Below are positions 6,475 through 56,936 of a stretch of DNA of 64,000 bases, piece after piece (the stretch's first letter is position 1; each line of letters begins with the position of its first letter). The notes below the pieces were generated by a model. That model worked only from the letters and a program-made list of their open reading frames with translations, was not told where the DNA came from and ran no database searches. The stretch is from Ruegeria pomeroyi. Its GTDB lineage: Bacteria > Pseudomonadota > Alphaproteobacteria > Rhodobacterales > Rhodobacteraceae. Position numbers and translations under genes: made by a program. Location of the stretch: NCBI RefSeq assembly GCF_021405525.1, contig NZ_JAGQAG010000004.1:1-64000 (forward strand), in the 5' to 3' direction.

Positions 6475-6505
6475 GGGGCTTCATTCCGCCCCAAATACTC
6501 AATTG
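6475..6505 (-). repeat. Dispersed 3'-end element, tail-only copy (copy D)
   Basis: Read on the minus strand this is GAGTATTT, three variable bases, then GCGGAATGAAG. It is the same tail as the copies at 16717, 44833 and 55483. It begins 9 bases after the crotonase stop and lies in the sense orientation. The two hairpins seen in other copies are absent. It is the only copy placed between two genes that are clearly in one operon. Confidence 0.6.
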
Positions 6506-6513
6506 CGCCGACC

Positions 6514-7317
6514 TCAATCGCCCATAAAGACGGGTTTTTCCTTGGCGACAAAGGCGCGATAGGCGCGTTCGAAATCGCCGGTCTGCATGCAGATCGCCTG
6601 TGCCTGCGCCTCGGCCTCGATCGCCTGTTCGATCGACATCGACCATTCCTGCGCCAGCATCGTCTTGGTGATCATATGCCCGAAATTCGGGCCTGCCGCG
6701 ATCTGCTGGGCCAGTTTGCGGGCCTCACCCTCCAGCGCGTCCGCCGCCACCAGCCGGTTGTGAAAGCCCCAGGCGGCGCCCTCGTCGGCGCTCATCGCGC
6801 GGCCGGTATAGAGGAGTTCCGCCGCGCGGCCCTGGCCGATGATGCGGGGCAGGATGGCGCAGGCGCCCATGTCGCAGCCGGCCAGCCCGACGCGGGTGAA
6901 CAGGAACGCCACCTTGGCCTCGGGCGTGGCGATACGCAGGTCGGAGGCCATCGCGATGATCGCGCCCGCGCCGACGCAGATGCCGTCGATGGCGGCAATC
7001 ACCGGTTTGCCGCAATTGATCATCGCCTTGACCAGATCGCCGGTCATGCGGGTGAATTGCAGCAGCTCTTTCATGTTCATGCGGGTCAGCGGCCCGATGA
7101 TGTCATGCACATCGCCGCCCGAGCTGAAATTGCCGCCGTTCGAGGCAAAGACCACCGCCTTGATGTCGTCATTGTAATGCAGGTCGCGGAACCAGTCACG
7201 CAGCTCGGCATAGCTGTCAAAGGTCAGCGGGTTCTTGCGCTCGGGCCGGTCCAGCGCGATGCGGGCGATGCCGTCCTCGATGGTGCACAGGAAATGGGTG
7301 GTGTCGGCGGCGGTCAT
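6514..7317 (-). CDS. Enoyl-CoA hydratase/isomerase (crotonase) family, divergent active site
   Basis: 267 residues. The crotonase fold is shown by [25 protein letters not shown] (oxyanion-hole region), [24 protein letters not shown] and [28 protein letters not shown] in two parts of that stretch. The two glutamates used for water addition in classic enoyl-CoA hydratases are not in their usual places: the first position reads TR before VGLAG, and the second region carries Asp (CDMGA). This suggests a different crotonase reaction, such as hydrolytic ring opening of a beta-oxo cyclic CoA ester as in BadI (inference). Its start overlaps the MarR stop by 4 bases (ATGA), so the two are translationally coupled. 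Confidence 0.85.
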
Positions 7318-16382: not shown

Positions 16383-16620
16383 GGTCCATCTCTGGTCCGG
16401 CCTGCGGTCGCTGGCCGGGGGCTGCGAGGTTGTCTCGGTCGAGGCCCGCGATACCGGCGAGATGCTGCGCGCCCTGGTGCGCGCGCATCCCGAATTGCAG
16501 GCGCCCATCGACGCGGGCGTCTCGGTTGCCATCGACGGGCGGGTGATCGCCTCGGGCCTGACCGAACCGATCCCGGACGGGGCCGAGGTCTATCTGATGC
16601 AGCGCTTGCGGGGCGGGTAG
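16375..16620 (+). CDS. MoaD/ThiS-like small sulfur-carrier protein
   Basis: 81 residues starting MVEVHLWSGLRSLAGG. Beta-grasp pattern with a run of short strands and the C-terminal end QRLRGG; the terminal Gly-Gly is what MoaE/MoeB-type enzymes adenylate and thiocarboxylate. The start lies inside the last codons of the large subunit (8-base overlap), so the two are coupled. A dedicated carrier in a molybdenum hydroxylase operon suggests it supplies molybdopterin dithiolene sulfur or assists maturation of this enzyme (inference). A general MoaD would normally sit with moaE. Confidence 0.75.
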   Translation: MVEVHLWSGLRSLAGGCEVVSVEARDTGEMLRALVRAHPELQAPIDAGVSVAIDGRVIASGLTEPIPDGAEVYLMQRLRGG

Positions 16621-16696
16621 GCTCCCGCCCCCCTCGGCGCCCCTTGCGGGACGCCTGCGGGCGTTGGGCCGGGCGCCGCTGCGCGGCGGATCTTTT

Positions 16697-16744
16697 GCGA
16701 GGCGCTGCCTCGCGCTCCGGAGTATTTGCGGCGGAATGAAGGAG
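16697..16744 (+). repeat. Dispersed 3'-end element, copy A (after moaD-like gene)
   Basis: A perfect 7-bp hairpin GCGAGGC-GCT-GCCTCGC (16697-16713) is followed by CCGGAGTATTT, three variable bases and GCGGAATGAAG. The tail matches copies at 44833 and 55483. It lies 76 bases after the MoaD-like stop, in the sense orientation. A second copy of opposite strand (16771-16816) serves the convergent racemase gene, so the 205-base convergent gap is almost filled by the two elements. Confidence 0.65.
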
Positions 16745-16770
16745 TGGGCGCCTGCTCTTTCCTCTTGCTG

Positions 16771-16816
16771 AAAATATCCCGGGGGAGTCACCGAAGGTGA
16801 CGGGGGCAGCGCCCCC
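16771..16816 (-). repeat. Dispersed 3'-end element, copy E (after racemase gene)
   Basis: On the minus strand: hairpin GGGGGC-GCT-GCCCCC, immediately a second hairpin GTCACC-TTC-GGTGAC, then TCCCCCGGGATATTTT. The first hairpin is identical to that of the 44.8 and 55.5 kb copies. The second keeps a 6-bp stem with a completely different sequence. The far tail differs (CAGCAAGAGG instead of GCGGAATGAAG). It begins 9 bases after the racemase stop. Confidence 0.65.
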
Positions 16817-16825
16817 AGCTACGGG

Positions 16826-17566
16826 TCAACCGCGCGGGTCGTCGATATCCTGGGCGAACCGGCGCGGCATCAGGCCGGATTGGAACCATGTGACCATCGA
16901 GTAGATGGAATAGACCGGCAGACCTGTGCGCCTTCGCAGATCGGCGGCATAGGGCACCATATTGGTGCATTCGAGAACGATGGCGCCCGCATCGGGTTGC
17001 TGCGCCAGGATCTGATCGGCCGCATCCAGCATGTCCTGACGGCAGGCGGCGAAGTCGATCTGAGGTGCGTCACCCAGGATGTCGCGGGTAAAGGCACGCC
17101 CGCCATCCGTGCCGAAGACCGGCGTATCCGCAGGCACGCCGGCGGCGGACAGATGGGCGGGGCTCAGGGTCGCTTTGGAGATGGTCAGGATCACCGCTTT
17201 TCTGCCCGGCGGCAGAAGGGCCTGTACCATCGGCACCTGCATCAGCGAGGAGGTTGCCACCGGCACGCCGAGGGCCGCGCGCAACTCGTCCTGAACCAGC
17301 GCGAGAAAGCCGCAATTGGTGGTGATCCCGTCCGCGCCGGTGGCCACCAGATCGCGACCCGCCTCGACAAAGGCGTCGAGCAGTACGCGGGGATCGCCTC
17401 GCACCACCTTGTCGGGCGAGGCGCCGCGCACCACCCTGTACTGCACCGGAAAGGGCCAGGTCAGCGCATTGCCCATATCGCCGGGAATGCGGGGAAAGCG
17501 GGTTTCCAGCATCAGGATGCCGACCGTGGCACCAAAGACCGTCTTGCCGCCGGATTGTAGGGACAT
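16826..17566 (-). CDS. Aspartate/glutamate/hydantoin racemase-family protein
   Basis: 246 residues starting MSLQSGGKTVFGATVGILM. Two conserved cysteine sites: ITTNCGFLALVQ (about residue 86) and VLECTNMVPYA (about residue 193), the acid/base pair of cofactor-independent Asp/Glu racemases. The reaction could also be a maleate isomerase or arylmalonate decarboxylase-like step, both in this fold. It follows the GntR gene by 7 bases on the same strand, so the regulator is its likely controller. The divergent ThDP enzyme gene may share this regulon. Real substrate unknown. Confidence 0.75.
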   Translation of the reverse strand: MSLQSGGKTVFGATVGILMLETRFPRIPGDMGNALTWPFPVQYRVVRGASPDKVVRGDPRVLLDAFVEAGRDLVATGADGITTNCGFLALVQDELRAALGVPVATSSLMQVPMVQALLPPGRKAVILTISKATLSPAHLSAAGVPADTPVFGTDGGRAFTRDILGDAPQIDFAACRQDMLDAADQILAQQPDAGAIVLECTNMVPYAADLRRRTGLPVYSIYSMVTWFQSGLMPRRFAQDIDDPRG

Positions 17567-17573
17567 GTTTGCC

Positions 17574-18263
17574 TCAGAGTTCGGGAACATAGAGTTGGGC
17601 ATAGGCATCGCGCACCGCCTGGGTCGCCCCTTCGCGGCGGCGTTCGATATGGGCGCGCATCTCGGCCATGGCGCCCTCGGCATCATGGCGGGCCACCGCG
17701 TCGAGGATGCGCTGATGCGCCGAAACCATGGTCTGGCCCTGCGGCCCCAGCGATTGCAGGCGGCGCAGGTCGATCAGGCGCAGATAGCGGATGCGGTCGT
17801 TGAGATTGTCGAGCATGCGCGCCAGCTCTCCATTGCCCGACAGCGCGCAAAGCCGTGTGTGAAACCATTCATCCATGCTGAGCAGCGTTTCGGTATCGGC
17901 GCGCGCGGTATAGTCGGGCGCGATATCCTCGAGGTCCTGCATCAGGATGGCGATCTCGCGCTCATCTCCGCGCAGGGCGGCGAGCCGCGCTGCCTCGACC
18001 TCGACCGCGACGCGGGCCTCGTAGAGATCCATCACCAGTCCCGGCGAAAGCGAGCGGCAGAAGAAACCGCGCCCCGAACGGAAGGTCAGGAAACCTTCGG
18101 CCACCAGCCGGTTCAGCGCCTCGCGGATCGGGGTGCGCGAGGCGTCGAGCTGGGTTGCCAGCGCGCTTTCGTTGATGCGGGCGTCGGGCTTGAAGGCGAA
18201 ATCCGCCGCCATGCGGCGGAGCGCCTCGTAAAGCCGGTCAACATTGCTTTCTGATTTGGTCAT
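17574..18263 (-). CDS. GntR-family (FadR/FCD subfamily) transcription regulator
   Basis: 229 residues from MTKSESNVDRLYEAL. Helix-turn-helix INESALATQLDASRTPIREA and the following NRLVAEGFL are classic GntR. The C-terminal all-helical FCD domain contains scattered metal-ligand His residues (DEWFHTRL, SAHQRIL, MRAHIERR). FCD regulators usually sense a small carboxylic acid. It is divergent from the ThDP enzyme gene across 107 bases and is followed by the racemase gene, so it probably controls both. The open frame extends 29 codons upstream, but this methionine begins the usual family lead-in. Confidence 0.87.
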   Translation of the reverse strand: MTKSESNVDRLYEALRRMAADFAFKPDARINESALATQLDASRTPIREALNRLVAEGFLTFRSGRGFFCRSLSPGLVMDLYEARVAVEVEAARLAALRGDEREIAILMQDLEDIAPDYTARADTETLLSMDEWFHTRLCALSGNGELARMLDNLNDRIRYLRLIDLRRLQSLGPQGQTMVSAHQRILDAVARHDAEGAMAEMRAHIERRREGATQAVRDAYAQLYVPEL

Positions 18264-43909: not shown

Positions 43910-44000
43910 CAATCTATTTATTAATTCGAAAGATATGATTTGAACAGAAGTTCCCGTCATGCGCAGAAAGAGGCAGGACATCAGCCCCGGAGAGATCGCC

Positions 44001-44798
44001 ATGCCGCACCCGCTTGTCACGCCCGAGATGATCGAGACCTTTCAGCGCGACGGTGTCGTGCTGGTCCGGGGCCTGTTCGCCGATCATGTGGAGGCCCTGC
44101 GCGCCGGGATTGCCGCCAACATGGCGGCACCTGGTCCCTATGCCTCGGAAAACCGCAAGGAGGGGCATACGGGCCTGTTCTTTGACGATTATTGCAACTG
44201 GGAACGTATCCCAGAGTTTCGCGAGGTGATCGAGACCTCGCCCGCCGCCGAGGTGGCCGCCGACCTGATGCGGTCGCAAACCGTGCAGATGTTCCACGAC
44301 CACGTGCTGGTCAAGGAGCCGGGCACCTCGATGGCGACGCCCTGGCACCAGGACGGGCCCTATTACTTTGTCGAGGGGCGGCAGACCGTCAGTTTCTGGT
44401 CGCCGCTGGACCCGGTGACCGAGGCGACGCTGCGCTGTGTGGCCGGGTCGCATCTCTGGGAGAAGGAGGTTCTGCCGACCCGCTGGGTGTCCGAAGAGGG
44501 GTTCTTTGCCGATGAAGGCCAGTACATGCCGGTGCCCGACCCCGAGGCCGAGGGGATGCGGATCGTCGAGTTTGAAATGGCGCCGGGCGATGCGGTGGCG
44601 TTTGACTATCGCACCCTGCACGGCGCGCGCGGGAATACCAGCAATTCGCGGCGTCGCGCCTTCTCGCTCCGGCTGGTTGGGGATGACGCGCGCTATGTGG
44701 AGCGTCCCGGCCGTACCTCGCCGCCCTATCCGGGGCATGACATGGTGCCCGGTCAGCGCCTGCGCGAGGATTGGTTCCCGGTGCTGCTGCGACGCTAG
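44001..44798 (+). CDS. Phytanoyl-CoA dioxygenase-family 2-oxoglutarate/Fe(II) oxygenase
   Basis: 265 residues from MPHPLVTPEMIETFQRDG, chosen over a start 14 codons upstream because GGAGAGA lies 7 bases before it. PhyH fold: iron triad from TPWHQDGPYYF (His, Asp) and TLHGARGN (distal His), and the double-stranded beta-helix between. It hydroxylates an unknown substrate. Monocistronic; LysR divergent upstream, and repeat copy B starts 1 base after the stop. Confidence 0.82.
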   Translation: MPHPLVTPEMIETFQRDGVVLVRGLFADHVEALRAGIAANMAAPGPYASENRKEGHTGLFFDDYCNWERIPEFREVIETSPAAEVAADLMRSQTVQMFHDHVLVKEPGTSMATPWHQDGPYYFVEGRQTVSFWSPLDPVTEATLRCVAGSHLWEKEVLPTRWVSEEGFFADEGQYMPVPDPEAEGMRIVEFEMAPGDAVAFDYRTLHGARGNTSNSRRRAFSLRLVGDDARYVERPGRTSPPYPGHDMVPGQRLREDWFPVLLRR

Positions 44799-44799
44799 A

Positions 44800-44860
44800 G
44801 GGGGCGCTGCCCCCGGCGCTGGCGCGCCTCCCCCGGAGTATTTATGGCGAAATGAAGGGA
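44800..44860 (+). repeat. Dispersed 3'-end element, copy B (after the phytanoyl-type dioxygenase gene)
   Basis: Hairpin 1 GGGGGC-GCT-GCCCCC (44800-44814) is identical to copies C and E. Hairpin 2 GGCGC/GCGCC (44815-44828) keeps pairing with other bases. The tail is TCCCCCGGAGTATTT then ATG and GCGAAATGAAGG. It starts one base after the stop in sense orientation. The opposite gene (minus strand) ends at 44871. Confidence 0.7.
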
Positions 44861-44870
44861 CAGGCCGGAA

Positions 44871-45737
44871 TCAGAACCACTGTCCCGGTTCCATCAGCCC
44901 CAGATCGAGCAGCTGGCGGGAATGCCATTCGAAGGGGGTGGAGTTGTGCCAGCGGAAGCTGTGGATCTCGAAGGTTGATCCGGGGTTCTTCTTCAGCGCC
45001 TTGGCGGTGCGGAAGGAACAGATCGCCGCCGTCAGGTTGTGATGCCAGGGACAGGCATAGGTGTTGTATTCCTGGTCGTCGAAAGTGTGATCGGGACGCA
45101 GATGCAGGCCGGGCGCCGATTTGAACAGCGAAATGCGGTCGATCTTGCGGCTGTCCTTGGGGATATGTTCCTCGTAGCGCCAGCGCACGCCGCCGAAGAA
45201 ATCGAGCTGCCGTTCGCGCGGATGACCGGTTTCCGGGTCCTTGCGGGCCTGGGCGTAATAGCCGGATCTGTCCAGAAAGGCGCGGTCGAGCGAGACCCCG
45301 ATGGGAAAGGCGCTGAGGTCGTCGGCATAGAGGTCGATGACATAGGTCAGCATGGCATCGCGCCGCTCTTCGCCGTGAAAGGCCAGCATCTCGCCGATGC
45401 TGCGCGTCTCGCAGAACGGATAGAACAGGTATTCGGCGTTGAAGCAGTAATACATCCAGATGCCCGGCGCCGCGGCGATGATGCGGTTGATCGCGTTGGT
45501 CACCGCCAGGCGCGGGCCGCAATCGAAGGGGATGCGATGGACCCGGTTTTCCACGTCGGGGGGCAGGGTAAAGGCATCGGGTATCAGCGCCAGCACCGAT
45601 TTGAACCCGCATTGGATATGGTGGCGCATGGTGGTGGCCAGTTCGACATCGTCCTCGACGAAGATCATCGCCACCGGGCCCTTGGCCAGGGCCTCGGCCC
45701 CGGTTTTCAGGAAATGATCGAGTGAGGCGTATTCCAT
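44871..45737 (-). CDS. Putative glycosyltransferase family 2-like protein
   Basis: 288 residues from MEYASLDHFLKTGAEALAK. No sharp catalytic motif is visible; VAMIFVEDDVELATTM, NAINRIIAAAPGIWMYYCFNAEYLFYPF and DLYADDLSAFPIGVSLDRAF recall short Rhodobacterales proteins annotated as glycosyltransferase family 2. An in-frame methionine 13 codons earlier (45776) is an alternative start. Both starts lack a strong ribosome site. Divergent from miaB across 134 bases. Function uncertain. Confidence 0.5.
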   Translation of the reverse strand: MEYASLDHFLKTGAEALAKGPVAMIFVEDDVELATTMRHHIQCGFKSVLALIPDAFTLPPDVENRVHRIPFDCGPRLAVTNAINRIIAAAPGIWMYYCFNAEYLFYPFCETRSIGEMLAFHGEERRDAMLTYVIDLYADDLSAFPIGVSLDRAFLDRSGYYAQARKDPETGHPRERQLDFFGGVRWRYEEHIPKDSRKIDRISLFKSAPGLHLRPDHTFDDQEYNTYACPWHHNLTAAICSFRTAKALKKNPGSTFEIHSFRWHNSTPFEWHSRQLLDLGLMEPGQWF

Positions 45738-45871
45738 GCCTGTCCAGCCTGCCTTGCCTATCTGCCTGTCTGGCATTCTGGGCCAACTTCGGTTAATTGC
45801 GCGTGCATTGCAAGCGGCGCCCGAACCCTGTAGACGCCGCCGCTGATCCCGCGAAAACAAAGGTCCGTCCG

Positions 45872-47191
45872 ATGTCCGACCCCAAGAAGCTGTTTATCAA
45901 GACCTATGGTTGCCAGATGAACGTCTATGACAGCGAGCGCATGGCCGAGGCGCTTGGCGGGCAGGGCTATGTCGAGACGCAGAGCGTCGAAGACGCCGAC
46001 ATGATCCTGCTCAATACCTGCCATATCCGGGAAAAGGCGGCGGAAAAGGTCTATTCCGAACTGGGCCGGTTCAAGGGGCTGAAGGCCGCGAAGCCCGATC
46101 TAAAGATCGGGGTTGCGGGCTGCGTCGCCCAGGCCGAGGGCGAGGAGATCATGCGCCGCCAGCCGTTGGTCGATCTGGTGGTCGGGCCGCAAAGCTATCA
46201 CCGCCTGCCGGAACTGGAAGCCAAGGCGCGCGCAGGGGAAAAGGCGCTGGACACCGATTTCCCCGAGGAAGACAAGTTCGAAAAACTCACGAGCCGCCCC
46301 AAGGCGAAGCGCGGCCCGACCGCGTTCCTGACGGTGCAGGAGGGCTGCGACAAGTTCTGTGCCTTCTGCGTGGTGCCCTATACCCGCGGGGCCGAGGTCA
46401 GTCGCCCCGCCGACCGCATCTTGCGCGAGGCCAACGAACTGGTCGAACGCGGGGTGCGCGAGATCACGCTGCTGGGTCAGAACGTCAACGCCTATCACGG
46501 CGCGGGGCCGAACGGCGACATGACACTGGCCGGGCTGATCTGGGAGCTGGACAAGATCGACGGGCTCGAGCGCATCCGCTTTACCACCAGCCACCCCAAT
46601 GACATGAGCGACGACCTGATCGAGGCGCATGGCACCTGCGCCAAGCTGATGCCCTATCTGCACCTGCCGGTGCAGGCGGGGTCGGACAAGATCCTGAAGC
46701 GGATGAACCGCAGCCATACCGCCGAAAGCTATCTGCGGCTGGTCGAGCGTATCCGCGCCGCCCGCCCCGATATCGTGATGTCGGGCGATTTCATCGTGGG
46801 CTTCCCCGAAGAGACCGAGGCCGATTTCCAGGCTACGCTCGATCTGGTGGAAGAGGTGCGGTACGGCTATGCCTATTCCTTCAAATATTCGACCCGCCCC
46901 GGCACCCCGGCGGCCGAGCGCGCGCAGGTCGACCCGGCCGAGGCCGACGATCGCCTGCAACGGTTGCAGGCGGTGATCACCCGCCACCAGCGCGAGATCC
47001 AGGACAGCATGGTCGGACGCGAGGTCAGTGTCCTGTTCGAAAAGCCCGGTCGCCTGCCCGGCCAGATGGTCGGCAAGAGCGAATACCTTCATGCGGTTCA
47101 CGTGCAGGATTCCGGGCTTGAAGCCGGGCAGATCACCCGCGTTCGGATCGTCGCGTCGGGTGCCAACTCACTGGCGGGCGAGCGCGTATAA
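45872..47191 (+). CDS. miaB: tRNA-2-methylthio-N6-dimethylallyladenosine synthase
   Basis: 439 residues from [18 protein letters not shown]-terminal methylthiotransferase domain with Cys in [15 protein letters not shown] and AGCVAQ (auxiliary [4Fe-4S]); radical-SAM cluster [17 protein letters not shown] (C-x3-C-x2-C); C-terminal TRAM domain ([11 protein letters not shown]..). It adds the 2-methylthio group at A37 of tRNAs. The longer open frame upstream overlaps no gene but is not supported. Confidence 0.95.
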
Positions 47192-47583
47192 GCGCGTGTA
47201 AAGGGTAGCTCGCGCGACCCTGTCTCGCTGCAGCCATCTGTTGATTGCTGCTGAATTGATGACGATAGCAGCGCAAGCCTTGATCTGTTTTCAATTTGGA
47301 AACAATTTTTTGGAGATCAGCTTTGTGGAATGTGCCGAGCACACCAATGTGAATCGGCGAGGCATGAGTAAACAAACGCAGAGAACTTGCCAGTCCAGAG
47401 TTAACGATTTTGGTCCAATCGACTTGGTGCGATAGAGACTGTAAGCAAAATGGATTCAATGGCTCGTGGATTTCTCTTCACAAAAATCTCGAATATTCTT
47501 AACCTTGCAGCAGTTTCGCGTCCGGCGGTCTAAGTCGATACAGCTGGCTGTTGGTAGTGGGGGAACCAGGTGAGGAATTTTCG
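47192..47583 (+). other. 392-base non-coding, AT-richer gap before the OmpA-like gene
   Basis: No coding sequence or tRNA was found here. The base composition is clearly lower in GC than around it, with runs such as TTTTCAATTTGGAAAC and AATTTTTTGG. It could hold a long 5' leader, promoter or a small RNA for the OmpA/lipoprotein pair, but no clear hairpin-plus-T-run was seen. Confidence 0.4.
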
Positions 47584-48165
47584 GTGACAGATTTCAAATA
47601 CAGAAGCGTGGCTGCCGCGCTTGCAACCGTGCTTGCACTGACTGGGGCGGTAACCGCTCCGGCGCTTGCCCAATCCAGCAGCGAGGGCACCAGTCGGACC
47701 GTGATCGGTGAACGCTATGTGCCGACCATCTGGGTTGATCCGGATGGCTGCGAGCACTGGGTGATGGATGACGGCGCCGAGGGCTTCATGACACCACATG
47801 TCCGCCGCGACGGAACCCCGGTCTGTCGCCGGGGTGCGCTGTGCGGCACGATGCCGACGGATCAGTTTTTTGCGACCGACAGCTATCGCATATCATCTGA
47901 AGGGCAAGCCCGGCTGCGCCAGTTCTTTCAGGAAACCGGCGCCAACGGCTATATCATCACCGGCCATACCGACAGCCGGGCTTCGGACGCCTATAACTTG
48001 CGGCTTTCGGTCAACCGGGCCAATTCGGTCGCGCGGGTGGGACGCGCCTCGGGCGCCCGCATTGTTGATGTACGTGGTTACGGCGAACGCGATCCGCGCG
48101 TACCCAATACCAGCGCCGCCAACATGGCGCAGAACCGCCGCGTCGAAATCATCTGTGTGAACTGA
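47584..48165 (+). CDS. OmpA-family outer-membrane/peptidoglycan-binding protein
   Basis: 193 residues with GTG start at 47584, chosen because GAGGAA stands 8 bases before and the signal peptide then starts properly (SVAAALATVLALTGAVTAPALAQ). Residues after the signal hold IWVDPDGCEHWVMDDG..., a Cys motif also found in the next gene. C-terminal OmpA peptidoglycan domain: YIITGHTDSRASDAYNLRLS, NRANSV, GYGERDP, NRRVEI. Likely links the outer layer to peptidoglycan. Followed 10 bases later by the lipoprotein gene. Confidence 0.85.
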   Translation: MTDFKYRSVAAALATVLALTGAVTAPALAQSSSEGTSRTVIGERYVPTIWVDPDGCEHWVMDDGAEGFMTPHVRRDGTPVCRRGALCGTMPTDQFFATDSYRISSEGQARLRQFFQETGANGYIITGHTDSRASDAYNLRLSVNRANSVARVGRASGARIVDVRGYGERDPRVPNTSAANMAQNRRVEIICVN

Positions 48166-48175
48166 GGAGAGCGAC

Positions 48176-48469
48176 ATGAAACTGTTCAAGGGAATCGCCC
48201 TTCTCGCGGCTCTGGGCGGGCTTGCCGCCTGTGAAGCGACCGACAAGACCCGCGACCGAGGCATCGACGCAAAGGATCTATCGCAGCTCAAGGCAGGCAT
48301 CTGGGTTGATCCGACCGGTTGCCAGCATTGGATTATCGACGACGGTCTCGAAGGCTATCTGTCTCAGCGGATGGATCGTAACGGCAAGCCGGTCTGCGAC
48401 GACTCGCTGCCCAAGGGTGTGGCCACCGGCCCGTTCAAGGAAGGCTCGAACATCGTCGACGCGATCTGA
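48176..48469 (+). CDS. Small lipoprotein sharing the WVDPxGCxHW motif with its OmpA-like neighbour
   Basis: 97 residues. Signal MKLFKGIALLAALGGLAAC with a lipobox (LAAC, Cys19). After a charged linker comes IWVDPTGCQHWIIDDGLEGY and GKPVC, matching the OmpA neighbour's WVDPDGCEHW, DDGAEG and GTPVC at the same spacing. The two cysteines might pair. Probable outer-membrane lipoprotein partner of the OmpA-like protein (inference). A strong terminator follows. Confidence 0.75.
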   Translation: MKLFKGIALLAALGGLAACEATDKTRDRGIDAKDLSQLKAGIWVDPTGCQHWIIDDGLEGYLSQRMDRNGKPVCDDSLPKGVATGPFKEGSNIVDAI

Positions 48470-48488
48470 GTGCCTGACATGACATCAG

Positions 48489-48515
48489 GGCCGCCCCATG
48501 GGGCGGCCTTTTTTT
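48489..48515 (+). terminator. Intrinsic terminator after the OmpA/lipoprotein pair
   Basis: GGCCGCCCC and GGGGCGGCC pair perfectly (9 bp, two-base centre) followed by seven T. It ends transcription 20 bases after the lipoprotein stop and precedes phoH. Confidence 0.9.
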
Positions 48516-48607
48516 GTTTCAAACAGGTGAAAACATTGCGGTCCCGCTTGCACCGACCGCAATATCTTGGCTACGCTTGTCCCAGGACTGCGACTACAGG
48601 AGAGCGG

Positions 48608-49618
48608 ATGGCCATCAGTGCCCTCACACCACCGCAAGACAGCAGCGCCCCCGAGGAGCTGCAACTGGAATTCCCCGACAACCGGCTGTTGATAGATTTG
48701 TGCGGCGAGCATGACCGCCACCTGGTGCTGATAGAGCAGGTGCTGGGAGTGCAGATCGTGCGGCGTGGCAATCTGCTGTCGGTTCTTGGCGAGGTCGGCG
48801 CGCGCGACCGCGCCGCCGAGGTGCTGGAGGCGCTGTACGAGCGCCTGCAATCGGGCCGCCCGGTCGAGGGCGCCGATGTGGACCGCGAATTGCGCATGGG
48901 ACGCGGCGAAGAGGCCAAGGATACTCCGGCGGAGGACCAGCTGGAGATGTTTCTAGGCGGCCGGATCGAGATCAAGACCCGCAAGAAGCCGGTCGAACCG
49001 CGCACCGACGCGCAAAAGGCCTATGTCAAATCACTGTTCGAGAACGAACTGGCCTTTGGCATTGGTCCGGCGGGCACCGGCAAGACCTATCTGGCGGTCG
49101 CGGTGGGCGTGTCGATGTTCATCAACGGTCTGGTCGACCGTATCATCCTCAGCCGTCCGGCGGTCGAGGCGGGCGAGAAGCTGGGCTATCTGCCGGGCGA
49201 CATGAAGGACAAGGTCGACCCCTACATGCAGCCGCTTTATGACGCGCTGAACGATTTCCTGCCGGGCAAGCAGGTGGCCAAGCTGATCGAGGAAAAGAAG
49301 ATCGAGATCGCGCCGCTGGCCTTCATGCGGGGGCGCACGTTGGCCAATGCCTTTGTGGTGCTGGACGAGGCGCAGAACGCCACCACCATGCAGATGAAGA
49401 TGTTTCTGACCCGCCTGGGCGAGGGCAGCCGCATGGTGATCACCGGCGACCGCAGCCAGGTCGATCTGCCGCGCGGGGTGACCTCGGGTCTGGCCGATGC
49501 CGAACGGCTGTTGAAGCCGGTGCCGGGCATCAGCTTCAATTATTTCACCTCCAAGGATGTGGTGCGACACCCGCTTGTCGCCGCCATCATCGAGGCGTAT
49601 GAGGCTGACACGGGCTGA
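48608..49618 (+). CDS. phoH: PhoH-family ATPase
   Basis: 336 residues from [15 protein letters not shown], with AGGAGAG upstream. N-terminal KH-like region, then the P-loop [38 protein letters not shown], Walker [11 protein letters not shown] and [12 protein letters not shown]. Linked in many bacteria with ybeY in RNA maturation; here ybeY is 58 bases later, then corC and lnt, the widely conserved order. Confidence 0.93.
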
Positions 49619-49676
49619 ACGGAGTTGGGTTTGTGAGTAGGATCGCTGGGTATTTGGCGGCGCGGAGCGAGGAAGC

Positions 49677-50174
49677 ATGACGCTGGATCTGACGCTGGAG
49701 GATTCGCGCTGGACCATCCTGCCGCCACTGGCTGACCGGGCGATTTCGGCGACGCTGGCGCAGATGGGGCTGGACCCAGAAATTTGCGAAATCAGCTTGC
49801 TTGGCTGCGACGACGATCGCATCGCAGCGCTGAATGCCGAATTCCGAGACAAGCCCGCCCCCACCAATGTCCTGAGCTGGCCCGCCGAGGATCTGGCTGC
49901 CGAAGAACCGGGCGGAGAACCCTTCGCGCCCGAGGCCGACTTCACCGGCGCCATTCCGCTGGGCGACATAGCCATTGCCTTTGACACCTGCCAGCGTGAG
50001 GCCGTGGCCGCGGGCAAACCTATGGATGACCATGTGACTCATCTGATTGTTCACGGCCTGTTACATCTGCTGGGCTATGATCACATCCGTGACGAAGACG
50101 CCACGCTGATGGAGGGATTGGAAAGTCAGATACTTGGCAACCTGGGGCTTGATGACCCATATACTATGGAGTGA
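49677..50174 (+). CDS. ybeY: Endoribonuclease YbeY (rRNA maturation)
   Basis: 165 residues. The zinc motif [11 protein letters not shown] with three His is complete, and [16 protein letters not shown] is typical. Single-strand-specific RNase in 16S rRNA maturation and ribosome quality control. Precedes corC. Confidence 0.95.
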
Positions 50175-50207
50175 GGGGCCAAGGGGCCTCGATTTGGAAC
50201 AGGATTG

Positions 50208-51095
50208 ATGGGCGACATAGAAGGCAGTTCTAGCGCAGCGCAGAGCGCGCAGCCGGAGGGAACCGGCGAAACGAACGCAGACAAGACAGGGTTTTTCACC
50301 CGTATCATGGATGCATTTTCATCCGGTGAAAGCCATCAGGAACAGGCCCCGAACGGGGCCACGACGGCACCCACGCCGGTGCCGGGAATTCTAAACCTTC
50401 GTCGGATGCGGGTCGAGGATGTGGCGATCCCCACGGCCGAGATCGTGTCGGTGCCATTGTCGATCTCCAAGGAGGAGCTGGTCCAGATCTTCCGCGACAG
50501 CGGCATGACCCGGATACCCGTCTATGAGAATACGCTCGATACGCCGCTGGGCTTCGTACATCTCAAGGATTTCGCGCTGACCCATGGTTTCAACGGCAAC
50601 TCGACACAGTTCGACCTGCGCTCGATGCTGCGCCCCTTGCTTTTTGTGCCCCCCTCGATGCCGATCGGGGTGCTGCTGACCAAGATGCAGACCGAACGGC
50701 GTCACATGGCGCTGGTGATCGACGAATATGGCGGGGTCGATGGATTGCTGACCATCGAGGATCTGATCGAACAAGTGGTCGGCGAGATCGAGGACGAGCA
50801 CGATACCGACGAGGCGCAGACCTGGGTCAAGGAACGGGCAGGCTGCTATATCGCGCAGGCGCGCACGCCGCTTGACGAGTTCGAGACCGAGATCGGCCGC
50901 TCGCTGACCAGTCACGAGGATGTTGACGAGGAAGAAATCGACACCCTGGGCGGGCTTGTCTTCATGCTGTCGGGCCGGGTGCCCGCGCGCGGCGAAGTCG
51001 TGCCGCATCCCGACGGGGTCGAGTTCGAAGTCATGGATGCTGACCCGCGCCGGATCAAGCGGCTCCGGGTGATGATTCCCGACACCGCCGAATGA
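50208..51095 (+). CDS. CorC/HlyC-family CBS-domain protein
   Basis: 295 residues from MGDIEGSSSAAQ. Two CBS domains: RVEDVAIPTAEIVSVPLSIS and MLRPLLFVPPSMPIGVLLTK, and the CorC_HlyC C-terminal domain (DTLGGLVFMLSGRVPARGEV). No transmembrane DUF21 part, so the soluble short type that usually follows ybeY. Presumed role in magnesium/cobalt efflux control or membrane maintenance. The stop overlaps the lnt start by 4 bases. Confidence 0.9.
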   Translation: MGDIEGSSSAAQSAQPEGTGETNADKTGFFTRIMDAFSSGESHQEQAPNGATTAPTPVPGILNLRRMRVEDVAIPTAEIVSVPLSISKEELVQIFRDSGMTRIPVYENTLDTPLGFVHLKDFALTHGFNGNSTQFDLRSMLRPLLFVPPSMPIGVLLTKMQTERRHMALVIDEYGGVDGLLTIEDLIEQVVGEIEDEHDTDEAQTWVKERAGCYIAQARTPLDEFETEIGRSLTSHEDVDEEEIDTLGGLVFMLSGRVPARGEVVPHPDGVEFEVMDADPRRIKRLRVMIPDTAE

Positions 51096-52609
51096 GCATT
51101 CTTTCAGGCTGGCAACTGTGGCAGCGCATGATGCTGGCCGCGGCGCTGGGGGCTGTGGCCGCGCTTGGCCTGGCGCCGATGTCGTTATGGGTTGCCACGA
51201 TCGGCGGCCTGATGGCGGTGCCTGCCTTGTTGCTCGCCGCTTCGGGCCGGCGCGAGGCGGCCTGGACCGGGTGGGCCTTTGCCACCGGCTATTTCGGCCA
51301 TGCGCTGACCTGGATCGTCGAGCCGTTTATGGTGGACGCTGCGCGCCACGGATGGATGGCCCCCTTTGCCTTGCTGCTGATGTCAGGCGGTTTGGCCTTG
51401 TTCTGGGCGGCTGCCTTTGCTCTTGCGGCGATGCCTTGGCGTGGGCCTGAGCGGCGCGTGCTACTGCTCGTGCTGACGCTGGGCCTGGCGGAAATGGCGC
51501 GTGGGTATGTGTTCACCGGCTTTCCCTGGGCCGGTCTGGCTCAAATCTGGGTCGATACCGATGTTGCGCTGCTTTTGGCCTGGACAGGTCCTAATGGACT
51601 CGGCTTCGCGACCCTCGCTGCGGCCTTGATCCCCGGTGTCGGGCTGGCGCAGGGGCTCGGTGGACGCGCGTTGCTCTTGCGCTGTCTCCCGCCGCTGGCG
51701 CTGGGGCTGGCGGCGCTGGCCGCAGACGCGGCGCGTCTCTCGGTCGAAAGCTCGGGCAAGGTGGTGCGCTTGGTGCAACCCAACGCGCCGCAGCATCAGA
51801 AATGGGACCCAGACTGGTATCCGGTTTTTCAGGAGCGACAGATCCGCTCGACTGCAGCCGGAACGCCGCCGGATTTGGTGGTTTGGCCGGAATCGGCGCT
51901 ACCCTATTGGCTCGACGAGGCCCGACCGGTGCTGGAACGTATCGCCGCCGCCGCGCGTGGCGCGCCGGTGCTCTTGGGCGCGAACCGGGCCGATGGCCCC
52001 CGTGTCTACAACTCACTTGCAATGATTGGCGCGGGCGGGCAGGTCGAGGTCACCTATGACAAGCATCATCTGGTCCCGTTCGGTGAATATGTGCCGATGG
52101 GTGATGTGCTGGAGCGGTTCGGTATCTCGGGGTTCGCCGCTCGCAGCGGGGGGGGCTTCAGCGCAGGGCCGGGCCCAGAGGTCTTGCCGATCCCGGGCAT
52201 CGGTGCTGCGCTGCCACTGATCTGCTACGAGGCGGTGTTTCCGCGATATGCCCGCAGCCCCGCCGGGCGGCCGCGTCTGCTGGTGCAGGTCACCAACGAC
52301 GCCTGGTTCGGAACCTGGGCTGGTCCTTATCAGCATCTGGCACAGGCGCGGATGCGGGCCATCGAACAAGGATTGCCAATGGTTCGGGTGGCCAATACCG
52401 GCATTTCGGCAATGATCGACCCGCATGGGCGCATCACAGCCGCGTTGCCTTTGGGACATGACGGATACCTGGACGTCGAATTGCCGCAAACGCTGCCGCA
52501 AACGGTTTACGGCCGGACCGGCGATGTGCCGTTGCTGCTGGCGATGCTGGTTCTGCTCGCTGGTGCCGCGCGGATACAAGGCCGATGCATGTCGCCAAAT
52601 AGCGATTGA
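51092..52609 (+). CDS. lnt: Apolipoprotein N-acyltransferase
   Basis: 505 residues. N-terminal membrane helices (about residues 10-200), then the nitrilase domain with the E-K-C triad in [25 protein letters not shown] and [11 protein letters not shown]. It puts the third acyl chain on lipoproteins in the inner membrane. Normal length. The stop lies 88 bases before metK, and the riboswitch fills that gap. Confidence 0.94.
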
Positions 52610-52640
52610 CCTTGCCATTGGCCCCGCGTATCCCGGCTTG

Positions 52641-52700
52641 GACCTGCCACAACGGCTTCCTGGCGTGGCGAGGGAAACCTTTAATGGAGCACTTTTCATG
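52641..52700 (+). promoter_or_regulatory. SAM/SAH riboswitch controlling metK
   Basis: GCCAC (52646-52650) and GTGGC (52665-52669) form the stem; the loop AACGGCTTCCTG carries GGCTTCC that can pair with GGAGC (52686-52690), the metK ribosome site, as a pseudoknot. The pattern CCACAACGGCTTCCTGGCGTGG, seen here in two parts, and the metK position match the SAM/SAH riboswitch known from Rhodobacterales. Ligand binding would hide the ribosome site and shut metK translation. Confidence 0.85.
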
Positions 52701-53879
52701 TCCCGACAGAACTACATCTTCACTTCGGAATCCGTCTCCGAAGGGCACCCGGACAAGGTGTGCGACCGCATTTCCGATGCGGTGCTCGACGCCTTTTTGA
52801 CCGAGGAGCCCGAGGCGCGCGTCGCCTGTGAAACCTTTGCCACCACCAATCGCGTCGTGATCGGCGGCGAAGTCGGCCTGTCCGATCAGGCCAAGCTGCG
52901 CGAATACATGGGTCGGATCGACCAGATCGCCCGGGACTGCATCAAGGATATCGGCTACGAGCAGGACAAGTTCCACCACGAGACGGTGGAGATCACCAAC
53001 CTGCTGCACGAACAGTCGGCCCATATTGCCCAGGGCGTCGATGCCTCGGGCAACAAGGATGAGGGCGCCGGCGATCAGGGCATCATGTTCGGCTATGCCA
53101 CCACCGAGACGCCCGCACTGATGCCGGCCCCGATCCAGTACAGCCATGCCATCCTGCGCCGTCTGGCCGAGGTGCGCAAGAACGGCACCGAGCCCGCGCT
53201 TGGCCCGGACGCTAAATCGCAGCTGTCGGTGATCTACCGTAACGGCAAGCCGGTGGGTGTATCCTCGATCGTGCTGTCGACCCAGCATCTGGATGAGGCG
53301 CTGACCAGCGCCGACATCCGCGCCATCGTCGAGCCCTATATTCGCGAGGTCCTGCCTGAGGGGTGGATCGGCGCCGATACCGTCTGGCACGTCAATCCGA
53401 CCGGCAAGTTCGTGATCGGCGGACCCGATGGCGATGCCGGCTTGACCGGGCGCAAGATCATCGTCGACACCTATGGCGGTGCCGCGCCACATGGCGGCGG
53501 CGCCTTCTCGGGAAAGGATCCGACCAAGGTGGACCGCTCGGCCGCCTATGCCGCGCGCTATCTGGCCAAGAACGTGGTCGCCGCCGGCATGGCCGAGAAA
53601 TGCACCATCCAGCTGAGCTATGCCATCGGCGTGTCGGCGCCGCTGTCGATCTATGCCGATACCCATGGCACTGGCACGGTCGCCGATGCCGAGATCGAGG
53701 CGGCAATCCCCAAGGTCATGAACCTGACCCCGCGCGGCATCCGCACCCATCTGGGTCTGAACAAGCCGATTTACGAGCGCACCGCCGCCTATGGTCATTT
53801 CGGTCGCGAGCCCGAGGCCGATGGCGGCTTCAGCTGGGAGCGCACCGATCTGGCCGAGGCGCTGAAAAAGGCGGTCTGA
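52698..53879 (+). CDS. metK: S-adenosylmethionine synthase
   Basis: 393 residues from [20 protein letters not shown]. Signatures: [43 protein letters not shown] split over the C-terminal half. Makes SAM from methionine and ATP. Feedback by the upstream SAM/SAH riboswitch fits. Followed by a strong terminator. Confidence 0.96.
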
Positions 53880-53903
53880 ACCGACGCATCGTGATCGACA
53901 AGA

Positions 53904-53928
53904 GGGCGGCCAGTGGGCCGCCCTTTTT
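53904..53928 (+). terminator. Intrinsic terminator after metK
   Basis: GGGCGGCC (53904-53911) and GGCCGCCC (53916-53923) pair perfectly with a 4-base loop, followed by TTTTT. Starts 24 bases after the stop. Confidence 0.88.
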
Positions 53929-54004
53929 CTTGAGCTGCCGCGATTGGGCTTGACCCGCGCGGTGCGGTTTTTCACCCTTGCCCGGACTTACCGGGAGACT
54001 TTGC

Positions 54005-54670
54005 ATGCACCCTCTTGCCAGGCTGACGCTTATCGCCGCGCTGACACTAAGCTCTGCGCAGGGGGCACATGCCGAAGAAGACGACCCGGTGTTCCGTGTC
54101 GAGGGCGAGACCTTGGTCTATGACACCACGCGCGGTGACGAGTCGGGCGGCACCGACGATATAGAGGTGTCTCATATCGACCGGTTGCTGGCGTTGCTGC
54201 GGCAGAACCCCGAGATCCGGGTGCTGGACCTCAACAGCACCGGTGGCAGCCTGTATGCCGGGCGCGAGATGGCGCGGATCGTGCTGGATTTCGACCTCGA
54301 TACCCTGGTTTCGGGCGAATGTTTCAGCTCTTGCGTGCGTATCTTTCTGGCCGGTGCCGGGCGGCGGATGCTGCTGGGCGCCAAGATCGGCTTTCATCAG
54401 ACCACCTGGTCACCCCGTTCGGTCGAGGAGTATTACACCGCAAATCGCGAGGCCGATGGCTGGGAGACGCCGTTCGATTTCGTCTCGTGGGTCTATGAGG
54501 ATACCCAGAGCGAGGTACATGACGATCTGGTCTATATGATCGACCGGGGTGTGGATGCGGGGTTTGCGGTGCGAACCAAGGGCGTGCGCGCGGATGACAG
54601 CTGGTACCCTTCGCGGCTGGAACTGACCCGCGCCGGGGTGCTGCGTGAACGCGCCCGCGCCGCCGAATGA
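54005..54670 (+). CDS. Exported ClpP-like/SppA-like serine protease-fold protein
   Basis: 221 residues from MHPLARLTLIAALTLSSAQG with a signal peptide ending AHA-EED. Core: IRVLDLNSTGGSLYAGREMA, then GECFSSCVRIFLAGAGRRML with a Ser in the ClpP-like nucleophile place, and AKIGFHQTTW with a His. ClpP/crotonase-fold, so perhaps a periplasmic peptidase; no membrane tail. Between metK and trmB, apparently on its own promoter. Substrate unknown. Confidence 0.7.
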   Translation: MHPLARLTLIAALTLSSAQGAHAEEDDPVFRVEGETLVYDTTRGDESGGTDDIEVSHIDRLLALLRQNPEIRVLDLNSTGGSLYAGREMARIVLDFDLDTLVSGECFSSCVRIFLAGAGRRMLLGAKIGFHQTTWSPRSVEEYYTANREADGWETPFDFVSWVYEDTQSEVHDDLVYMIDRGVDAGFAVRTKGVRADDSWYPSRLELTRAGVLRERARAAE

Positions 54671-54730
54671 GGCACCGGGCCGCGCGGCAGACCCTTGCAC
54701 CGGGCGCGCGGGCGCAGTAACCCCGCGGCC

Positions 54731-55444
54731 ATGAGCAAGACGACACCCGACCGCCCGCGCCGCAACTTCTATGGCCGCATCAAGGGCAAGACCCTGAAAC
54801 CGAACCAGCGGACCTATCTGGACGAGGACCTGACGCCCCTGTCGCCGGGTCCGGTGAGCTGGCAGGACAATCCCAGCCGCCAGCCGCTGGATCTGGACGC
54901 GCTGTTCGGCGGGCGCGAGACCTGGCTGGAGATCGGGTTCGGCGGTGGTGAGCACCTTGTGCATCAGGCGGCCTCGAATCCCGGCATCGGCATCATCGGC
55001 GCCGAACCCTATATCAACGGGGTGGCGATGCTGTTGGGCAAGATCCGGGCGGCAGGCGCTGACAATGTGCGGGTGCATCCGGGCGATGTGCGCGACCTGT
55101 TCGACGTGCTGCCGGCGCAGAGCATCGCACGCGCTTTCCTGCTCTATCCCGATCCCTGGCCCAAGAAACGGCATCACCGCCGCCGTTTCGTGACGCCCGA
55201 GCATCTGGAACCGCTGGCGCGGGTGCTGAAACCGGGTGCCATCTTTCGCGTGGCCACCGACATCCCCGACTATGTCCGCCAGACGCTGGAAGAAGTGCCG
55301 CGCGCCGGGTTCGAATGGCTGGCCGAGGCGCCCACCGACTGGCGTTTGCCCTGGGGGGACTGGATCTCGACCCGGTATGAGCAGAAGGCGCTGCGCGAAG
55401 GCCGGGTGCCGCATTACCTGACCTTCCGCCGGGTGGAGGGCTGA
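54731..55444 (+). CDS. trmB: tRNA (guanine-N7-)-methyltransferase
   Basis: 237 residues from MSKTTPDRPRRNFYGR. SAM motif LEIGFGGGEHLVHQA, FLLYPDPWPKKRHHRRR (tRNA-binding TrmB signature) and IFRVATDIPDYV. Modifies G46 in the variable loop. The stop is followed 4 bases later by repeat copy C. Confidence 0.93.
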   Translation: MSKTTPDRPRRNFYGRIKGKTLKPNQRTYLDEDLTPLSPGPVSWQDNPSRQPLDLDALFGGRETWLEIGFGGGEHLVHQAASNPGIGIIGAEPYINGVAMLLGKIRAAGADNVRVHPGDVRDLFDVLPAQSIARAFLLYPDPWPKKRHHRRRFVTPEHLEPLARVLKPGAIFRVATDIPDYVRQTLEEVPRAGFEWLAEAPTDWRLPWGDWISTRYEQKALREGRVPHYLTFRRVEG

Positions 55445-55448
55445 GGCA

Positions 55449-55510
55449 GGGGGCGCTGCCCCCCGCGCCTGCGGCGCGTCCCCCGGAGTATTTTCCGCGG
55501 AATGAAGAGG
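55449..55510 (+). repeat. Dispersed 3'-end element, copy C (after trmB)
   Basis: Hairpin 1 GGGGGC-GCT-GCCCCC (55449-55463), hairpin 2 CGCGCC-TGC-GGCGCG (55464-55478), tail TCCCCCGGAGTATTTT then GCGGAATGAAGAGG. Same order and spacing as copy B, with hairpin 2 changed on both sides so that pairing is kept. Begins 4 bases after the trmB stop, sense orientation. Confidence 0.72.
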
Positions 55511-55589
55511 GCGGTCGCGCGCCGGTTCCCGCTGGACCCTGACGGGGCAATTGGGTAATCGCGGGGGGAGTTTTTGCGAAGGAGCGCGC

Positions 55590-56936
55590 ATGTCCGGACA
55601 CGGCACCCCCATCCCGATGACCTCGCATCCCTGTGGCCCGCTGAGCGGCGTGGCCGAGGTGCCGGGCGACAAGTCGATCTCGCACCGGGCGCTGATCCTT
55701 GGCGCGATGGCGGTGGGCGAGACCCGTATCACCGGCCTGCTCGAAGGCGAGGACGTGCTGGACACCGCCAAGGCGATGCGCGCCTTTGGCGCCGAAGTGA
55801 CCCGGCATGCCGATGGGTCGTGGTCGGTGCACGGGGTCGGCGTGGGTGGCTTTGCCGAGCCGGATCAGGTGATCGATTGCGGCAATTCCGGCACAGGTGT
55901 GAGGCTGATCATGGGGGCGATGGCGACCTCGCCCATCACGGCGACCTTTACGGGCGATGCCAGCCTGAACAAGCGGCCGATGGCGCGGGTCACCGATCCG
56001 CTGGCGTTGTTTGGGGCACAGGCGGTGGGTCGCGAGGGTGGCCGGCTGCCGATGACCATCGTGGGCGCCGCCGATCCGGTACCGGTGCGTTACGAGGTGC
56101 CGGTGCCGTCGGCTCAGGTGAAATCGGCCGTGCTGCTGGCCGGGCTCAACGCACCGGGTCAGACCGTGGTGATCGAGAAGGAGGCCACCCGCGACCATTC
56201 CGAGCGGATGCTGGCGGGGTTTGGCGCCGAGGTCACGGTCGAGGATACCGACGAAGGCCGGGTCATCACCCTGACCGGGCGGCCCGAGTTGCAACCGCAG
56301 GTGATCGCGGTGCCGCGCGACCCGTCGAGCGCCGCCTTTCCGGTCTGCGCTGCGCTGATCACCCCCGGCTCGGACGTGCTGGTGCCCGGCATCGGGCTGA
56401 ACCCGACGCGCGCGGGCCTGTTTACCACGCTGCGCGAGATGGGTGCCGATCTGACCTATGAGAACGAGCGTACCGAGGGCGGCGAGCCGGTGGCCGACCT
56501 GCGCGCGCGCTATTCGCCCGACATGAAGGGCATCACCGTGCCGCCCGAACGCGCGGCCAGCATGATCGACGAATACCCGGTTCTGTCGGTGGTGGCCGCC
56601 AATGCCCAGGGCGTGACCATGATGGGTGGCGTCAAGGAGCTGCGCGTCAAGGAAAGCGACCGGATCGACGCCATGGCGCGCGGGCTGCGCGCCAATGGCG
56701 TGACCGTGGAAGAGGGCGCCGACTGGTGGGCGGTGCATGGTCTGGGCATCGGTAAGGTGCCGGGTGGCGGCACCTGCGAGAGCTTTCTGGATCACCGCAT
56801 CGCCATGTCCTTCATGGTGATGGGCATGGGAGCCATGGCGCCGGTTTCGGTTGACGATGGCAGCCCGATCGCCACCTCTTTCCCGATCTTTGAGCCGCTG
56901 ATGGGCGGTCTGGGCGCAAAGCTGGAGCGGACATGA
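55590..56936 (+). CDS. aroA: 3-phosphoshikimate 1-carboxyvinyltransferase (EPSP synthase)
   Basis: 448 residues from [18 protein letters not shown] with GAAGGAG upstream; the open frame before it is not supported. EPSPS patterns: [77 protein letters not shown]. The [10 protein letters not shown] section resembles class II enzymes. Penultimate shikimate-pathway step. Stop overlaps cmk by 4 bases. Confidence 0.95.

Follow-up and report, generated by a model that had tools for sequence, protein, structure and literature searches.

The genome of Ruegeria pomeroyi (GCF_021405525.1, 4.51 Mb; the own genome, G000) carries, within the 64,000-nt stretch of contig NZ_JAGQAG010000004.1 analyzed here (C4:1-64000; the window), five copies of a dispersed element of hairpins and a conserved tail placed behind stop codons. 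The question raised by this locus is what such an element does at the ends of genes and whether it does so as RNA or as DNA. An earlier note, made from the letters of the window, had taken covariation in one of the stems as a sign of a selected RNA structure and had guessed at a terminator or processing element or a REP-like mobile repeat. We followed the element through its own genome, through congeners (G001, G003, and G004 among them) and through the wider class, and tentatively read it as an undescribed REP/BIME-like mosaic at gene 3' ends that serves as a bidirectional barrier at transcript 3' ends.

The Element in the Window

All five places read as they had been described, copies B, C, and E with two hairpins, A with one and D with a tail only (table 1). 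B, C, and E have a common hairpin 1 (GGGGGC-GCT-GCCCCC) and differing second hairpins, followed by TCCCCCGG-RRTATTT-NNN-GC-tail, and A and E are joined tail to tail in a composite found also in G004 and G001. The claim that the copies lie from 1 to about 90 bases past a stop codon agrees with the gene calls made here with a purpose-written dicodon gene caller, in which the distances run from 1 to 76 nt. The core CGGRRTATTTNNNGC occurs four times in the window against a mean of 0.03 in shuffles, and the longer tail RRTATTTNNNGCRRAATGAAG four times against 0.01 (one mismatch permitted, none needed), with D among the four. Under model R1, a covariance model of 47 members that include B, C, and E, copy A scores 40.4 bits and copy D just 17.4 bits (E 0.011).

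Table 1. Copies of the element in the window, with their parts and neighboring genes
Feature	Position	Strand	Sequence	Context
Copy B, full span	44800-44857	+		
Copy B, hairpin 1	44800..44814	+	GGGGGC-GCT-GCCCCC	1 nt past stop of gene 44001-44798 (PhyH family)
Copy B, hairpin 2	44815..44828	+	GGCGC/GCGCC	
Copy B, tail	44829..44857	+	TCCCCCGG-AGTATTT-ATG-GCGAAATGAAG	convergent gene 44871-45737 ends 13 nt further
Copy C, full span	55449-55507	+		
Copy C, hairpin 1	55449..55463	+	GGGGGC-GCT-GCCCCC	4 nt past stop of gene 54731-55444 (Methyltransf_4 family)
Copy C, hairpin 2	55464..55478	+	CGCGCC/GGCGCG	
Copy C, tail	55479..55507	+	TCCCCCGG-AGTATTT-TCC-GCGGAATGAAG	next codirectional called gene at 55590 (EPSP synthase)
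Copy E, full span	16757-16816	-		
Copy E, hairpin 1	16802..16816	-	GGGGGC-GCT-GCCCCC	9 nt past stop of gene 16826-17590 (-)
Copy E, hairpin 2	16787..16801	-	GTCACC/GGTGAC	
Copy E, tail	16757..16786	-	TCCCCCGG-GATATTT-TCA-GCAAGAGGAAAG	second tail dialect
Copy A, full span	16697-16741	+		
Copy A, sole hairpin	16697..16713	+	GCGAGGC-GCT-GCCTCGC	single-hairpin class; 76 nt from stop codon
Copy A, tail	16714..16741	+	GCTC-CGGAGTATTT-GCG-GCGGAATGAAG	
Copy D, tail without hairpins	6479..6499	-		between genes 6514-7317 (-) and 5307-6461 (-); 14 nt from stop

Minimum free energy alone did not separate the copies from shuffles of their own GC-rich letters: the sense strands gave z between -0.15 and -1.06 (B, C, E, and A), and the opposite strands of B and C gave -1.16 and -1.98, respectively. 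The structural evidence rests on covariation and not on energy.

A Mosaic of Hairpin and Tail Modules

Across the own genome the core is matched 96 times, each match inspected by eye in its context, against two matches for a reversed control pattern. By regular expression, 63 of the 96 are two-hairpin copies, 14 have the single hairpin GCGAGGC-GCT-GCCTCGC-GCTC, and another 14 have one hairpin of the G-run/C-run type and a short linker. Five have no hairpin class; L069, which is intragenic, is apparently a chance match, and the other four are apparently truncated or altered. On the 3' side of the hairpins most copies continue with YYCCCCGG-RRTATTT-NNN-GC, with GCTCCGG in the GCGAGGC class. The tail comes in dialects, AG mostly with GAAATGAAG, GGAATGAAG, or AAAGTGAAG, and GA with AAGAGGAAAG; in the reverse halves of composites ACCAGAAAGAAG occurs as well. 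Tail columns that the search pattern does not fix are conserved both among 95 sequences of the own genome and among 131 of other genomes, columns 32-34 (G-A-A) reaching 100/100/99% in the former and 86/95/82% in the latter. By regular expression, 20 of the 96 copies are apparent tail-to-tail composites, most copies being single.

Among the second hairpins, a 21-bp palindrome, ACAAAATTCGNNGAATTTTGT, was matched 17 times forward and 18 times in reverse across the own genome when one mismatch was permitted, most palindromic places scoring on both strands; the control gave no match. With its variants it lies as hairpin 2 between hairpin 1 and TATTT at 17 of 19 own-genome places. The near letter-for-letter recurrence of this module exceeds a requirement for any hairpin.

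A third hairpin, ACTCC-CCC-GGAGT, was also considered; it suits some copies but not the GA dialect and was rejected by eye. Pairing of the NNN spacers within composites was likewise rejected, the spacers being identical in one of five pairs checked by eye. Upstream of single-hairpin copies, for example at window 16600-16696, L003, and L037, stands a common extra module in which GCGTTGGGCCGGGC is followed by a stretch rich in GC and by either CTTTT or CTTG; the mosaic thus extends beyond the element as delimited here. Two neighboring AT-rich palindromes, ACAAAATTCGCAGAATTTTGT and AGAAAATTCTGCGAATTTTCT, lie outside the element at L293 (own C1:1145332-1146352) and are similar in G004 (L304); these are apparently orthologous places and perhaps a regulator's double site.

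Distribution in the Rhodobacteraceae

The covariance-model search of related genomes that the earlier note had proposed found many further copies. At E 0.001, model R1 has 127 matches in the own genome and 114, 109, 121, and 108 in four congeners (150 candidates scored in each), and it matches 32 of 41 sampled genomes of the family, with 1 to 131 matches each (131 candidates scored), the other nine having none. Copy number varies, strict-core copies from 21 to 96 among congeners and model matches from 0 to 131 among genera. The element is nearly absent outside the Rhodobacteraceae: six of 240 genomes of the class match (22 candidates scored in each, with stricter filters), three belonging to the family and the three others having one weak match each. 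A pattern scan of genome contigs returned at least 117 stretches; among the matches listed, 109 of 117 are titled as Rhodobacterales taxa, and the remaining eight are metagenome assemblies with broader labels, one Sphingomonadales.

Other genera have core dialects of their own, present in some number, often CGGGATATTTNNGGC in G013 and CGGAATATTTNNNGC in G018, and G018 gave no match to model R1. Conservation at gene ends across genera is modest (element at 14/26 versus 20/70, p = 0.03, with the 14 drawn from only 12 loci, of which two are Ruegeria). The gene before window copy C also bears the element in Roseovarius salinarum (L196).

Position and Orientation Relative to Genes

The 96 own-genome copies comprise 44 in convergent gaps, 23 codirectional in sense, 17 codirectional in antisense, five in divergent gaps, and seven inside called genes, against 9.0, 56.4, and 23.7 expected from intergenic length for convergent, codirectional, and divergent gaps (89 copies). 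These counts may suffer from errors in calling gene starts and small genes, and each composite enters them twice. Subject to the same limits and with the gene caller retrained on those genomes, the 119 copies (117 loci) of other genomes comprise 53 convergent, 30 sense, 22 antisense, four divergent, six inside genes, and four not assigned, against 18.6, 52.1, and 38.3 expected. Relative to intergenic length, convergent gaps are strongly preferred and divergent gaps shunned.

Every copy had been thought to lie in the sense direction. In the wider sample this proved wrong, 39 of the 92 codirectional copies being antisense. Equal sense and antisense placement had been named as a refutation; sense copies are in excess (53 versus 39 with codirectional gaps pooled), but not significantly so (p = 0.17). 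All five window copies are sense, but A, B, and E sit between convergent genes and would be sense to one of them whichever way they pointed, so that C and D alone are informative for orientation. Among codirectional copies of the other genomes, sense ones have the stop codon at a median of 15.5 nt from their hairpin side and antisense ones at a median of 22.5 nt from their tail side. The antisense copy L068 lies between two genes that both run opposite to it, and the element with its flanks aligns in both G004 and G001 (L245 and L255). Of 66 copies that follow a gene in the sense direction, 8 have a canonical-terminator-like site between the stop codon and the hairpin, and there the element would rarely be transcribed; at L001 such a site before the hairpin is visible by eye and was missed by the script.

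Pairing in the Second Hairpin

Covariation, claimed from the copies of the window, is present in a larger alignment of 47 two-hairpin copies (A1). Helix 1 is nearly invariant, and helix 2 has two-sided changes at all six pairs, amounting to 38 cells against 9.2 (sd 2.4) when shuffled and 5-21 with slid partners. Two of five covariation measures were unremarkable, with doubly changed pairs reached by 94 of 500 shuffles and pair types by 50 of 500; paired cells make up 80% of helix 2, partly owing to unequal stem lengths.

Over a larger set of 185 elements, the stem score of hairpin 2 averages 11.9 against 6.2 (sd 2.1) with shuffled letters, and its 1,127 pairs include no G-T and four A-C. Canonical terminators of the same genomes under nearly the same scoring (n = 81; a stem score of 10 and a stem end at a T-run were required) have 24 G-T and seven A-C in 684 pairs (Fisher p 5.5e-11 for the G-T difference, with pairs treated as independent). 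A G-U pair would do no damage to a sense RNA, yet it disrupts the stem formed by the opposite strand. The absence of such pairs suggests a two-strand device, a DNA palindrome, or copying that restores perfect palindromes, and Watson-Crick-perfect stems suit the first two better than a sense-only RNA. Of the proposal that covariation marks a selected RNA structure, the covariation of hairpin 2 stands, but a sense RNA is not implied. More generally, two-sided covariation without G-U pairs is no proof of sense RNA.

Stable Sites and Exchanged Modules

Among the copies followed from congeners to the own genome, which were the best-scoring ones among the matches listed, a choice biased toward conserved copies, all 17 in G004 have an own-genome counterpart: 15 are aligned in place, as is L240, and L234 is placed by its upstream flank alone, with a different hairpin 2 and a different downstream neighbor. 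Three further G004 places from BLAST hits (L250-L252) also align to own-genome copies. Of 20 stretches from G001, L253 was set aside; 15 of the 19 usable copies have a counterpart (13 aligned, two more occupied), with L259, L260, L261, and L272 assigned neither a counterpart nor an empty site. A flank is poor or missing in the alignments of L257, L262, and L267. Among the 32 resolved, best-scoring copies of the two genomes there was no clean empty site.

At stable sites whole modules sometimes differ between species. Hairpin 2 of L050 site 4 is GTCGCC/GGCGAC in the own genome, GTCGCGCG/CGCGCGAC in G003 and G001, and the palindrome ACAAAATTCG without a TATTT tail in G004, and hairpin 2 is likewise replaced in place at L040 in G004 and, with poorer flanks, at L035 and L059 in G001. 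At L012 there is a clean change from C-G to T-A on both arms in G004. The tail dialect switches at the site of copy A, from GGAATGAAG in the own genome to ACCAGAAAGAAG or ACCAAAAAGAAG in G004 and G001, and the NNN spacer is often unlike between orthologues. Losses occur too: at L050 site 1 G001 has just one half of the composite, and hairpin 1 is missing from the own L005. Elsewhere in L050 (~4718-4816) the own genome has 16-96 nt between conserved blocks against about 470-510 nt in G004, G003, and G001, reflecting either a deletion in the own genome or an insertion in its relatives.

Relation to Known Repeats and Terminators

REPs prefer gene 3' ends and act as a barrier to 3'-to-5' exonucleases. 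The element resembles REPs and BIMEs in consisting of short extragenic palindromes with more than 100 copies per genome and apparent inverted composites; the own genome has 96 strict-core copies, seven of them inside called genes, and 127 model matches. It differs from REPs in its perfect stems, in positions that are stable between species, in often having two hairpins, the second of free sequence, with a long conserved tail, and in lacking both a GTAG tag and, in the own genome, a RAYT gene. The RAYT/Y1_Tnp profile (PF01797) has no match in the own genome and control matches in 5 of 14 genomes; of 90 hairpins, 2 have GTAG in the 10 nt on their 5' side, a flank that is not strongly conserved. 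The accessible text of earlier studies describes REPs as short extragenic palindromes of high copy number (PMC2817692, PMC3733652) and those of E. coli as having imperfect stems and GTAG (PMC8266576).

Like a canonical intrinsic terminator, the element has a GC-rich hairpin directly after the stop codon, but it has no U-tract at the hairpin foot, occurs in both orientations, and at times stands behind canonical terminators; a terminator scan of 44000-56000 gave four sites, none at B or C. U-shaped and I-shaped terminators are tandem or lone hairpins without a U-tract that are defined by position and energy alone. The element shares with them tandem hairpins after genes and the absence of a U-tract, and differs in its conserved sequence tail and indifferent orientation. 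Uptake sequences, reportedly arranged as terminator hairpins (Kingsford, in 2007, is said to have described this), are likewise short repeats located at gene ends and frequently paired in inverted orientation. They have many hundreds of copies and occur in genes, whereas the element has ~100 copies, 7 of 96 inside called genes.

Searched at the gathering threshold over the whole window, Rfam matched only at 52641-52691 (+), and a search of 44700-44960 up to E 10 gave no match. The single match is a SAM/SAH riboswitch (RF01727, 58.7 bits) directly 5' of the S-adenosylmethionine synthetase gene 52698-53879, a position that is ordinary for this bacterial group. A description of the element was not found in the literature searched by sequence and topic, a coverage with subscription papers mostly outside it. 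The Rhodobacterales names asked for (Ruegeria, Silicibacter, Rhodobacter, Paracoccus, and Roseobacter, not all for each paper) are absent from the accessible text of PMC12306157, PMC3733652, and PMC2267715. The corresponding text of a paper on R. pomeroyi sRNAs (PMC4809877) has no mention of terminator, motif, convergent, or UTR, with "repeat" in protein names alone, and that of PMC5107571 does not mention repeats or palindromes. The earlier note knew of no named family for the element, and none was found in Rfam or in the literature searched.

Possible Functions

What the copies have in common is one or two strong hairpins close to a stop codon that can be read on either strand, and this suits a barrier to 3'-to-5' exonucleases, the likeliest of the mechanisms considered, at slightly less than even odds. 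RNA from either strand would fold hairpins 1 and 2 shortly past the stop codon; once transcription had terminated or the transcript had been cleaved further downstream, the hairpins would block PNPase and similar exonucleases, and the block would fix the mRNA 3' end and separate convergent transcripts. Both the setting of RNA 3' ends by the hairpins and the exonuclease step are inferred. PNPase has a wide effect on 3' ends in R. sphaeroides, where a PNPase mutant is enriched for 82% of 1,072 differential 3' ends (PMC7866481). The accessible text of that paper reports no shift toward lower folding energy ahead of the 3' ends enriched in the wild type, just fewer unstructured sequences, and its support for structure as an exonuclease stop is weak. 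RNase E cleavage at RRUAUUU was also considered as a common function; it is possible, but unlikely because 39 copies are antisense. As far as its accessible text goes, PMC6238624 gives R. sphaeroides RNase E an AU preference, with only about 2% of sites in 3' UTRs.

A sense-direction intrinsic terminator of a non-canonical kind, in which two tandem hairpins are followed by CGGRRTATTT, would account for hairpins close behind the stop codon and for the weakly T-rich TATTT after them. We consider this quite unlikely: the 39 antisense copies do not fit it, TATTT in B, C, and E begins 10 nt past the foot of hairpin 2 and has four T, the scan calls neither B nor C, 8 of 66 copies stand behind a canonical-terminator-like site, and the stems are without the G-T pairs found in terminators here. 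Spread by a transposase, with tolerance at 3' flanks only, would fit the high and variable copy number and the inverted composites (20/96 by regular expression), but we regard a mobile REP-like element as unlikely, given the missing PF01797 match in the own genome, GTAG in 2/90, and the counterparts of 17/17 copies in G004 and 15/19 in G001, without an empty site among these best-scoring copies. Of the original guess, the canonical terminator thus falls away, the mobile REP is weakened by stable sites and the lack of a RAYT, and a processing or 3'-barrier element remains. Perfect palindromes can also come from template switching without selection, and quasi-palindrome template switching or gene conversion between copies would explain why both arms change jointly with almost no G-T intermediates and why whole hairpin 2 and tail modules are replaced at stable sites. 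As the source of stem perfection in place of selection, such a mutational process seems to us very unlikely, since mutation alone would explain neither why positions beside stop codons are stable nor why some hairpin is kept in nearly all orthologues examined.

The conserved tail is superfluous for a barrier, and its strict sequence and indifferent orientation point to a role at the DNA level. The 8 of 66 copies behind a terminator-like site and a tail outside the barrier account leave room for such a role, which could be that of a protein-binding or chromosome-structure site, as proposed for BIMEs, with RNA hairpins incidental. A putative protein at gene ends would bind the tail CCGGRRTATTT-NNN-GC-RARANGAAR and the palindromes, in keeping with conserved tail positions outside the search pattern in own and other genomes, with indifferent orientation and absent G-T pairs, and with the near-identical ACAAAATTCGNNGAATTTTGT palindrome as hairpin 2 at 17 of 19 places. 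Hairpin 2 is otherwise free in sequence, however, the NNN spacer often differs between orthologues, and the strong 3'-flank preference would need a separate reason; we consider a protein site somewhat unlikely. A further possibility, to which we give about as little weight, is a stable-site cassette system, in which the conserved tail at gene ends of the Rhodobacteraceae would be recognized by a putative DNA-binding factor. Hairpin cassettes, the 21-bp palindrome ACAAAATTCG among them, would then be copied from site to site by conversion.

Implications

Stable sites with module swaps make conversion between short dispersed repeats directly testable in this lineage. If true, the cassette system would be a lineage-wide two-way gene-end insulator, unlike RAYT-spread REPs. 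The element, nameless in the sources searched, would be a standard gene-end part in a major marine and soil group, and it bears on how convergent genes stay separated.
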